Positions 18,251 to 21,696 of a DNA stretch of 64,000 bases are shown here, piece by piece. Made by a program: the position numbers and the translations under genes. Position 1 is the first letter of the stretch. Every line of letters starts with the position of its first letter. The notes beneath the pieces were generated by a model. That model searched no databases and was not told the DNA's origin. It worked only from the letters and a program-made list of their open reading frames with translations. Source of the stretch: Luteibacter sp. UNC138MFCol5.1 (GTDB taxonomy: Bacteria; Pseudomonadota; Gammaproteobacteria; Xanthomonadales; Rhodanobacteraceae); NCBI RefSeq assembly GCF_900110505.1, contig NZ_FODZ01000005.1, forward strand, positions 186,001 through 250,000, in the 5' to 3' direction.

Positions 18251-18278
18251 GTGTGGAACCTCCTGAAAGTCTGTATGC

Positions 18279-18308
18279 AGATTAGCAGTCCCGGAATGAG
18301 AGTGCTAA
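18279..18308 (-). promoter_or_regulatory. CIRCE-like HrcA operator overlapping the rpoH promoter
   Basis: TTAGCAGTC (18282-18290), nine bases, then GAGTGCTAA (18300-18308) match the CIRCE consensus TTAGCACTC-N9-GAGTGCTAA at 17 of 18 positions with the exact 9-base spacer. On the rpoH strand TTAGCA (18308-18303) and TAATCT (18284-18279, preceded by TGC) at 18-base spacing form a plausible -35/-10 pair, so a bound repressor would cover the promoter. The site is about 30-60 bases before the rpoH start codon. The match is directly visible; HrcA binding is inference. Confidence 0.82.
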
Positions 18309-18481
18309 GCCAGCCCGAAGTTCATCGGTTAACTGTACGCCATAGTACAGAAATACCGGGCAGGTGTCCAGAGGGAGGTTCGGGGCATTCAGGGGAGAGA
18401 CGGCAAGCCCAGCCCGGGAACCGGAGAGGCTCCCAGCCAGGTGGCTGTTCCACATAGGAATATGGGTCTCCGCCGGACCAA

Positions 18482-19186
18482 TTAAAGGGCGGCGATTTCC
18501 GGGCGCGGCGGCAGCGACCAGTCGATCGGCTGCTCGCCGCGGGCTTCCAGCCAGGCGTTGGCCTGCGCGAAGTGACCGCAGCCGAGGAAACCGCGGTGGG
18601 CCGAGAGAGGCGACGGATGCACGCTGCGGAGGATCAGGTGGCGCTTGCCGTCGATCAGCTGGCCCTTCTTCTGGGCGTGGCTGCCCCAGAGCATGAAGAC
18701 CAGGCCGTCCCGCCCGCGGTTGAGCGCGTCGACGGCGGCGTCGGTGAAACCTTCCCAGCCCCTGCCCTGATGCGAACCCGCCTGCCCGGCCTCGACGGTC
18801 AGCACCGCGTTGAGCAGGAGCACGCCACGGTCGGCCCATGGCGTCAGGCAGCCATGGTCCGGACGCGGGATGCCGAGGCAGGCCTCGATCTCCTTGAACA
18901 TGTTCTGCAGCGAGGGCGGCACGCGCACGCCGGGCCGCACCGAGAAGCTCAGCCCATGCGCCTGTCCCGGGCCGTGGTACGGGTCCTGGCCGAGGATGAC
19001 CACGCGGACCGCCTCGAACGGCGTGTGCGCGAAGGCATTGAAGATCTCGGGGCCAGGCGGATAGATCTCCTTGCCGCGGGCCTTTTCCTCACGAAGGAAC
19101 GCCGACAGCGCCAGCATGTCGGGACGGTCGAGGTAATCGCCGATCCGCGCCTTCCAGCTCGGCTCGAGCTTCACGCGGTCGTTCAA
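18482..19186 (-). CDS. ung: Uracil-DNA glycosylase
   Basis: Removes uracil from DNA to start base-excision repair. The 234-residue product has the family-1 catalytic motif GQDPYHG (66-72, Asp68 activates water) and the leucine-loop motif HPSPLSA (190-196). The start overlaps the stop of the upstream double-receiver gene by ATGA, so it is the last gene of ftsE-ftsX-regulator-ung. A 231-base spacer separates it from rpoH. Confidence 0.97.
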
Positions 19187-20022
19187 TGTTCGACCCGGTC
19201 GCGGAGATGCAGGGCGACGCGCAGCTGGAAGAGCAGCTTGGTGATGAGCAGCTTTTCTTCCACCGGCTTCTCGACGAGGTCGTTGGCGCCGGCGCGCAGC
19301 AGCGCCGCCTGGTTCGCCGGGTTCTCGTCGCCGGTCATGATCAGCGTGGGCAGCTGGCCCTTGCCGTAGCCGAAGTCGTTGCGGATACGCTCGACGAGAT
19401 CACCGCCGGTGAGCTCGCCCTTGAGGCTGACGTCGGTGAGCACGACGTCGGCGCCGACGTCACCCCGATCCCTGGCGGCGCGCAGGTGTTCGAGCGCGTC
19501 TTCGGCGCTGATGACGTGGTGCACGGTCAGGCCGTACTTCTCCATCATGCGCCGGGTGGCCAGCGCGACGACGCGGCTGTCTTCCACGTAAAGCACTTCA
19601 CCTTCGGCGCCGCCCTCGGGGCGCACGTAGCCGCGGATGAACTCCGCGAGCGCGCCGAAGCCGAGCGACTTGTCGAAGTAGTCGGTGACGAACTCGCCGA
19701 GTTCGCGCCGGTGCAGGCGCGCCTCGACGTCGCCGGACACCACAACGATGGGCATGTAGATCTGCGGCGTGGCCTCGCGTACGAAACGGGCGAGTTCCAG
19801 ACCGTCCATGTCGGGCAGGCGCAGGGCGACGGTCACGAAATCGAAGACGCCCCGCTGCAGTTCGGTCTGCGCTTCCGCGCCGGTGGCCGCACCGACGATT
19901 TCCACGCCGGGCACCTCGGCCGCGACGACGCGCGCGATCAGCTGCCGGACGACCTTGGAGCCGTCGACGAGCAGGATGCGTGGCGTGGCGCCGGCGACAC
20001 CCGAACCGATGTGAGATCCCAC
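19183..20022 (-). CDS. Double-receiver response regulator with a degenerate first receiver
   Basis: A 279-residue protein made only of two receiver domains, with no output domain. In receiver 1 (about 14-130) the phospho-acceptor position is Ala66 ([13 protein letters not shown]) and one acidic-pocket residue is Gly21 (LLVDGSK), so it should not be phosphorylated, although Lys118 is kept. Receiver 2 (about 141-265) is intact, with Asp197 ([11 protein letters not shown]), MTGD and Lys252 (LVEKPV). The start is a GTG at 20022 behind AGGGAAGGGG; upstream frame overlaps ftsX. It sits 19 bases after ftsX and overlaps ung by four bases. Without an output domain it probably works by protein contact, perhaps with division or envelope machinery (inference). 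Confidence 0.85.
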
Positions 20023-20041
20023 CCTAAGTTCCCCTTCCCTC

Positions 20042-21022
20042 TCAGCCCGCCGCGGCGCGGCGGATCTGCCTCGCACTGACGAGACGCGCGCCGAGCCACC
20101 CCAGCACGGCAGACGCGAAGGGTACCGAAAGCAGCAGCCACGCGGGGAGTGCGCCGAAGCTCACGCTCCCGTCGTACGCCGCGGCGAGCCGCCCGACCGG
20201 TCCGGCCATCGCCAGTTCGAGCACGACGGCCAGGGCGACGGCGAGCACGCCGGCGAGGAAGCCGAGCCAGATGCCGGCATACAGGTAAGGCCTGCGCACG
20301 AACGGCCGGCTCGCGCCGATGAGCAGCAGCACGCCGATCTCGGCGCTGCGGCTCTGGATGTCCACGCGGATGGTGTTCCCGACGACCAGCAACGCGGCCA
20401 CGCCCAGCAGCAACGCGAGCAATCCGACGGCGCGTCCACCGACGCCGACGAGGGCGTCGAGGCGCTGCCGCCACGCGCCGGTCTCCTGGACCATGTCGAC
20501 GCCTGGCGTCGCCTTCATCGCCTCGACCAGCCGGTTGACGTCGTCCGCCGATAGCCCGGCCTTCGGCTGCACCGAGAGCACGTACGGCAAGGGGTTGGCG
20601 TCGAGCGACTGCAAGGCGCCGGAGAAACCCTGCACTTCCGCCAGTTCGTCGAGGCCATCCTTCGGCGTCCGCACGACGATGTCGGCGACCTCGGGGCGTC
20701 CGCGCAGAGCGGAGGCCGCCGTCTCGGCCACGCCCGCGTTCTGCCCGGGCTTCAGGAACGCGCTGATCGACTGGTTGCGGCCGAGGGCGTCGCCCATGCG
20801 TTGGACGTTGTCGAGCAGCAGATAGAACGTCAGCGGAAGGGCGAGCGCCACGCCCATCACCGCGATGGTGAGCAGCGTGCCGAGCGGTCGCGCGCCGAGG
20901 CGGCGCAGACTGATCGACATGCTCCACGCGTGGTGTTCGCGCCAGGCGCCGACCTTGCGCGGCCCGCTGCGGCGGGTCGCTTCGGTCTCGGGTGTCTTGC
21001 GTGCGTCGCGGGCGGCGTTCAT
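20042..21022 (-). CDS. ftsX: Cell-division ABC-type permease FtsX
   Basis: Membrane partner of FtsE; the complex activates septal peptidoglycan hydrolases. The 326-residue protein has an N-terminal cytoplasmic tail, helix 1 at about 49-70, a periplasmic loop of about 95 residues and three C-terminal helices, which is the usual FtsX topology. Motifs NTIRVDIQSRSAEIGVLLLI and GASRPFVRRPYLYAGIWLGF are characteristic. The start overlaps the ftsE stop by four bases. Confidence 0.96.
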   Translation of the reverse strand: MNAARDARKTPETEATRRSGPRKVGAWREHHAWSMSISLRRLGARPLGTLLTIAVMGVALALPLTFYLLLDNVQRMGDALGRNQSISAFLKPGQNAGVAETAASALRGRPEVADIVVRTPKDGLDELAEVQGFSGALQSLDANPLPYVLSVQPKAGLSADDVNRLVEAMKATPGVDMVQETGAWRQRLDALVGVGGRAVGLLALLLGVAALLVVGNTIRVDIQSRSAEIGVLLLIGASRPFVRRPYLYAGIWLGFLAGVLAVALAVVLELAMAGPVGRLAAAYDGSVSFGALPAWLLLSVPFASAVLGWLGARLVSARQIRRAAAG

Positions 21023-21696
21023 ACGACCTCCGTCGCGGGCACGTCGGCGACGAGCTTGCCGTGGTCGAGGACCACGACGCGCTTCTTCATGCGCTTGATC
21101 AGCATGAGGTCGTGGCTGGCGACCAGCACCGCGGTGCCCACGGCCTGGAATTCGGCGAAGAGCGACATGATTTCCATGGCCAGCTGGGGGTCGAGGTTGC
21201 CCGTGGGCTCGTCGGCGATGAGCACGGCCGGCTTGGCGACGATGGCGCGCGCGATGCCGACGCGCTGCTGCTCGCCCGTGGACAGGGCCTCGGGCAGCTG
21301 CTTCTCGTAACTGAGCAGGCCGACCTTCTCGAGGGCGGCGCGGACGCGACGGCCACGATCGGCCGGCGACACGCCACCGATGATGAGCGGCAGTTCGACG
21401 TTGGCGAAGACGGTACGGTCCAGCAGCAGGCGGTGGTCCTGGAAGACCATCCCGAGCTTGCGGCGGATCTTCGGGATGTCGCCGGGGCGAACGGTGTTGA
21501 GCTTCTGGCCGTCGAGGGTGACGACGCCGTTGGTGGGGCGCTCGATCATGGCCAGCAGCTTCAGGAGCGTGCTCTTGCCCGCGCCGGAATGACCGGTGAC
21601 GAATGCCATCTCGCCCGCGCCGACCTGGAACGACACATCGGTAAGGGCCTGGTGGCCGCCCTCGTATCGTTTGCTCACCAGATCGAAACCGATCAC
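21019..21696 (-). CDS. ftsE: Cell-division ATP-binding protein FtsE
   Basis: Cytoplasmic ATPase of the FtsEX division complex, 225 residues. It has the FtsE-typical Walker A (GHSGAGKST, 35-43), Q-loop (GMVFQDHRLLL), signature LSTGEQQRV and Walker B LIADEPTGNLD. It is the first gene of ftsE-ftsX-receiver-ung; the promoter should lie in the 165-base spacer that also contains a REP pair. ftsY, often upstream in relatives, is not here. Confidence 0.97.
   Translation of the reverse strand: MIGFDLVSKRYEGGHQALTDVSFQVGAGEMAFVTGHSGAGKSTLLKLLAMIERPTNGVVTLDGQKLNTVRPGDIPKIRRKLGMVFQDHRLLLDRTVFANVELPLIIGGVSPADRGRRVRAALEKVGLLSYEKQLPEALSTGEQQRVGIARAIVAKPAVLIADEPTGNLDPQLAMEIMSLFAEFQAVGTAVLVASHDLMLIKRMKKRVVVLDHGKLVADVPATEVV

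Follow-up and report, generated by a model that had tools for sequence, protein, structure and literature searches.

The rpoH locus and its CIRCE element

The 64,000-nt stretch of DNA analysed here, henceforth called the window, carries an rpoH gene, which is preceded by a ribosome binding site, a 27-bp CIRCE element and promoter-like motifs of two kinds (Table 1). Farther upstream of rpoH, the frames at 18482–21696 of the minus strand presumably encode proteins resembling, as judged by eye, a uracil-DNA glycosylase, a response regulator, FtsX, and FtsE.

Table 1. Features at the rpoH locus (window positions)
Feature	Position	Strand	Basis
rpoH, sigma-32, 286 aa	17390..18250	-	TIGR02392, 418 bits vs. 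cut-off 323.1
AGGAGG, rpoH ribosome binding site	18259..18264	-	
CIRCE element (predicted HrcA operator)	18282..18308	.	1 mismatch, 9-bp spacer; genus conservation
TCTCA, sigma-E type -10	18297..18301	-	16 nt from GAACTT; spacer base conservation
GAACTT, sigma-E type -35	18318..18323	-	GAAC at same offset, 22/22 genus loci
TACTAT, putative sigma-70-like -10	18342..18347	-	17 nt after TGGACA
TGGACA, putative sigma-70-like -35	18365..18370	-	likeness within genus and family by eye, unscored

On the plus strand, the 27-mer at 18282–18308 reads TTAGCAGTC-CCGGAATGA-GAGTGCTAA and differs from the CIRCE consensus TTAGCACTC-N9-GAGTGCTAA at 1 of 18 positions, with a spacer of exactly 9 bp and a gap of 31 nt (18251–18281) between the element and the ATG of rpoH. 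The initial annotation had claimed a one-mismatch CIRCE with exact spacing at this place, which was confirmed; the start given there, 18279, is three bases early. At up to three mismatches, 100 dinucleotide-preserving shuffles of the window yielded a mean of 0.01 matches, and a reversed control pattern gave no match in the 4.2-Mb genome. The same genome scan returned one further CIRCE, located before groES, with 3 mismatches vs. 1 at rpoH. The initial annotation had also reckoned with a genome devoid of hrcA; the gene was found (PF01628, E 1.5e-66) in a cluster hrcA-grpE-dnaK. The genome also has an rpoE ortholog (TIGR02939, 322 bits vs. 236). Autoregulation of hrcA was considered and rejected, the 3.66-kb hrcA locus containing no CIRCE better than 8 mismatches.

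Conservation of the element and its co-occurrence with hrcA

CIRCE matches with at most three mismatches were found in all 23 genomes of the genus, and the element stood before rpoH in 22/22 loci read in context (in the 23rd genome, G012, the best locus was the groES site, and its rpoH-type match fell outside the 22 loci read). The arms on the rpoH strand were TTAGCACTC/GACTGCTAA in 18 of the 22 loci, TTAGCAGTC/GACTGCTAA in two, and TTAGCACTC/CAGTGCTAA in two. The third base of the rpoH-proximal arm was changed from G to C in 20 of these sites, and each of the 22 departed from the consensus in one arm, two of them in both arms; the remaining bases of both arms were invariant. A site absent or scrambled in relatives, an outcome envisaged with the initial annotation, was thus not seen within the genus; in the Xanthomonas-like genera, the rpoH sites were partly degraded, with 4–5 mismatches. 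Because of these mismatches and the third-base change in the genus, repression may be weak or lost in such genomes. In another family of the order (f2), the rpoH site was usually the variant TTAGCAGTC-N9-GACTGCTAA. A shift of HrcA specificity towards this G-type arm was considered; since several f2 groES sites share the one-arm change, no rpoH-specific shift is claimed.

Across the order, hrcA was detected in 89 of 200 genomes. The regions before rpoH were compared for 76 hrcA-positive genomes outside the genus and 44 of the 111 hrcA-negative genomes, and the site was scored as present at up to five mismatches. The 44 hrcA-negative genomes belong to 65 with a listed rpoH position (44 covered, 21 not); 46 more were without one, as were the hrcA-positive genomes G038, G041, G055, and G056. 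The element preceded rpoH in 75/76 hrcA-positive vs. 0/44 hrcA-negative genomes, among which some absences are unsure because the sequence of G193 (L219, 121 bases) is shortened and MAGs were included (Fisher p 3e-32, relatedness not corrected for). Of the 75 sites, 28 were perfect; one, two, three, four, and five mismatches were found in 12, 23, 3, 7, and 2 sites, respectively, and the best match among the 44 hrcA-negative genomes had six. G139, the sole hrcA-positive genome missed, contains a repeat with altered spacing. In the families with both hrcA states (f2, f4, f5, and f12), the site tracked hrcA with one exception, which belongs to f2.

Relics of the site were recognized by eye in five hrcA-negative genomes, i.e., G035, G167, and G180 (f2) as well as G033 and G043 (f12). 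They consisted of one arm or part of it, and in the f2 genomes, in which no CIRCE with up to three mismatches occurs genome-wide, the spacer was changed as well. Had the repressor been lost first and its site then decayed, relics of this kind would remain; the right half-sites surviving in some hrcA-negative genomes may, however, also reflect another use or a recent loss.

A set of named genomes provided 80 rpoH loci, two of which end before the upstream region, so that 78 were scored. CIRCE stood before rpoH in 40 of 45 hrcA-positive genomes (two of these calls being weak, namely a Rhizobacter MAG with a short end fragment of 26 bits and a Pseudoalteromonas with a divergent protein of 46.6 bits) vs. 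3 of 33 hrcA-negative ones, these three carriers all being metagenome bins. The hrcA-positive genomes without the site were MAG WH4.bin29, MAG N2M, Thioploca, Anaeromyxobacter, and a Myxococcota MAG. Carriers included Dyella, Methylocaldum, Nitrosomonas, Pandoraea, Trinickia, Polynucleobacter, and Leucothrix. The Pseudoalteromonas protein, that of Pseudoalteromonas luteoviolacea H33-S (L042, L286, L288), is HrcA-like (PF01628) and encoded beside a GrpE-like frame; the single CIRCE of this genome at up to two mismatches is perfect and precedes rpoH.

A second CIRCE with up to two mismatches was located before groES in all 24 same-family genomes having one. The rpoH site was nearer to the consensus than the groES site in 21 of these 24 genomes, with two ties and one worse. 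Operator sequence and spacing are those of the classical groESL CIRCE of the HrcA regulon; the rpoH case differs in that the target is a sigma factor gene. Upstream of the 3-mismatch groES CIRCE (L002), a sigma-32-like CTTGAAC-N13-CGCCAT was noted by eye, and with this motif and CIRCE both before groES, groESL seems to be under both controls.

Promoter motifs under and upstream of the element

The rpoH strand of the window shows GAACTT-CGGGCTGGCTTAGCAC-TCTCA, in which a sigma-E type -35 is followed at a distance of 16 nt by a TCTNA-like -10. Of the five bases of this -10, two close the distal CIRCE arm and three open the spacer. Compared with GGAACTT, the window has TGAACTT, and GAACTT was found in 18 of the 22 genus loci. 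The core GAAC lay at -15/-16 from the site in all 22 genus sequences, in 23/25 of the same family (f1), and in 30/31 of f2; of the other 19 sequences of the order, 11 had it at -15 and seven at -13. The seven f12 genomes fit the -13 position, and their spacers start with TCCAA, TCCCA, TCGAA, ACTAA, or similar; with GAAC 2 nt closer and the start of the spacer shifted, -35 and -10 seem, by eye, to have moved together. TCNNA occupied the -10 place in 82/97 sites, and across the 75 order sites, base 3 of the rpoH spacer was A in 81% and base 2 was A or C in 92%. Within f1, an A at spacer base 3 was present in 20/25 rpoH sites (hand count) vs. 1/24 groES sites. A -10 within the rpoH spacer would account for this difference, since a repressor spacer needs no such base.

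A sigma-E-like promoter score of at least 10 was reached in 54/76 hrcA-positive genomes (0.6% in mononucleotide shuffles) and in 23/44 hrcA-negative genomes (0.9%), which suggests that the promoter stands without CIRCE once hrcA is gone. Among the 43 named genomes with the site, GAAC at -15/-16 was found in 23 and not in 20; in Burkholderiales-type genomes, CIRCE lies farther from the ATG, without GAACTT at the fixed offset, on some other promoter. The arrangement is comparable to the GAACTT-N16-TCTGA layout before enteric rpoH, which we take to be the sigma-E dependent promoter P3 and which was recovered, in a scan of 23 loci, from eight Enterobacterales loci together with a more distant Aeromonas match. 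Both are of sigma-E type, but here CIRCE overlies the -10, whereas no CIRCE was found before rpoH in the enteric loci, whose genomes have no hrcA, nor in the Vibrio and Shewanella loci scanned.

The initial annotation had assumed a -35/-10 pair under the site. This stands for the sigma-E type -10 and the likely transcription start, which the element covers, but not for the sigma-70-like pair TGGACA-N17-TACTAT, which is located 34–62 nt upstream of CIRCE. A weak sigma-70 pair inside the element (TTAGCA/CTAAT) was discarded as a poor fit in this genome, GAACTT-N16-TCTCA being the conserved pattern (by eye). The sigma-70-like -10 is overlaid by a palindrome, CTGTAC-N6-GTACAG (18333–18350, minus strand), nearly unchanged across the genus as judged by eye, which is possibly a second operator.

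Predicted control of rpoH by HrcA

The HrcA operator that the initial annotation had placed on rpoH is strongly supported as a prediction by its position, its conservation in the genus, and its co-occurrence with hrcA. Overall, the site is taken to be real and maintained by selection, over a promoter of sigma-E type. Judged from these sequence comparisons, the element is probably (about four chances in five) a working HrcA operator, at which the repressor occludes the -10 and the start of the sigma-E promoter and thereby represses rpoH; HrcA binding, the transcription start, promoter use, and the direction and size of regulation are the parts that we infer. In Bacillus, HrcA is kept active by free GroEL. 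In unstressed cells, GroEL-activated HrcA on CIRCE would accordingly be expected to keep rpoH low, and heat or misfolding would titrate GroEL and release HrcA from the element. With sigma-E active as well, rpoH would be transcribed and sigma-32 would drive the chaperone genes, until refilled GroE restored HrcA. The bound repressor may, in addition, act as a roadblock to transcription from the sigma-70-like promoter upstream. Hence, three stress circuits, those of HrcA, sigma-32, and sigma-E, appear to meet at rpoH, and HrcA would act on the sigma-E-driven step toward sigma-32.

That the operator is real and acts mainly on the upstream sigma-70-like promoter, as a roadblock in the leader, with GAACTT minor or unused, seems unlikely to us. 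The position of TGGACA-N17-TACTAT upstream of the site would suit this arrangement, as would the Burkholderiales-type sites with their greater distance from the ATG and lack of GAACTT at the fixed offset; against it stand GAAC at -15/-16 in 75/78 sequences of the genus, f1, and f2, the A at spacer base 3 that marks rpoH and not groES sites, and the joint shift of -35 and -10 in f12. We give even less credit to the idea that the genus site, with its off-consensus arm, is in decay as a relic or serves a regulator other than HrcA. One arm is indeed altered throughout the genus, and half-sites survive in hrcA-negative relatives, but the rest of both arms is invariant in 22/22 loci, three hrcA-negative g27 genomes have no CIRCE at all at up to three mismatches, and 11 of the 12 hrcA-positive g27 sister sequences examined retain the spaced repeat before rpoH with 2 mismatches. 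It is very improbable that the repeat acts in the rpoH leader as an RNA hairpin or thermosensor and not as a protein operator. Transcription from the upstream promoter would include the repeat, which is able to fold and has fully complementary arms in 42/75 order sites, but such arms occur in only 2/22 genus sites, the leader folds no better than shuffles (z -0.22; 77/200 equally stable), and a hairpin needs neither the CIRCE match nor the tracking of hrcA.

A further reading is put forward tentatively, at somewhat less than even odds, namely that rpoH and not groESL is the leading HrcA target in Rhodanobacteraceae-like bacteria and that two inputs gate the rpoH promoter. Full firing would then require both envelope stress, with sigma-E active, and exhaustion of cytoplasmic GroE, with HrcA off the site. 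If this holds, a lineage such as Pseudoalteromonas luteoviolacea would retain HrcA solely for rpoH.

Textbooks keep HrcA/CIRCE, sigma-32, and sigma-E apart as three heat-shock strategies. They would be joined at one promoter by a conserved CIRCE on a sigma-E-type rpoH promoter, which would also predict how sigma-32 is controlled transcriptionally outside the enterics and would open to testing which regulator heads the heat-shock response. Lineages that lost hrcA and in which the site then decayed, with the sigma-E promoter retained, constitute a natural experiment.

CIRCE on rpoH has a precedent, as it was predicted before rpoH of Geobacter sulfurreducens (Rodionov et al. 2004, PMC545781, Table 8). 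There, the element lies some 50 bp upstream of the start codon, and hrcA is present as well; the differences are that the case concerns one deltaproteobacterial genome with a perfect CIRCE and that no sigma-E overlap is described in the portions of that paper used here (PMC545781). The pattern reported here is, by comparison, gamma- and betaproteobacterial and tied to hrcA. Besides Geobacter, no statement of CIRCE before rpoH was found in the literature searched, a body of text outside which most subscription papers fall. The HrcA/CIRCE and sigma-32 regulons of beta-, gamma-, and epsilonproteobacteria were reportedly treated by Permina and Gelfand in 2003, i.e., the same question in overlapping taxa, and rpoH may already be listed there.

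Expression data are available from relatives, cited here from excerpts of the respective reports. In Stenotrophomonas maltophilia kept at 42 °C for 10 min, rpoH mRNA was without significant change and rpoE was up 5.9-fold (PMC6479208), and in nitrogen-starved Xylella, a 4-fold rise of hrcA mRNA at 2 h was followed by a 2-fold rise of rpoH mRNA at 8 and 12 h (PMC3224663). As far as these excerpts go, both data sets do not favour simple derepression of rpoH. In an rpfF mutant of X. oryzae, rpoE and rpoH were both raised (PMC8659556), which fits, indirectly and within the same limits, a sigma-E step to rpoH.
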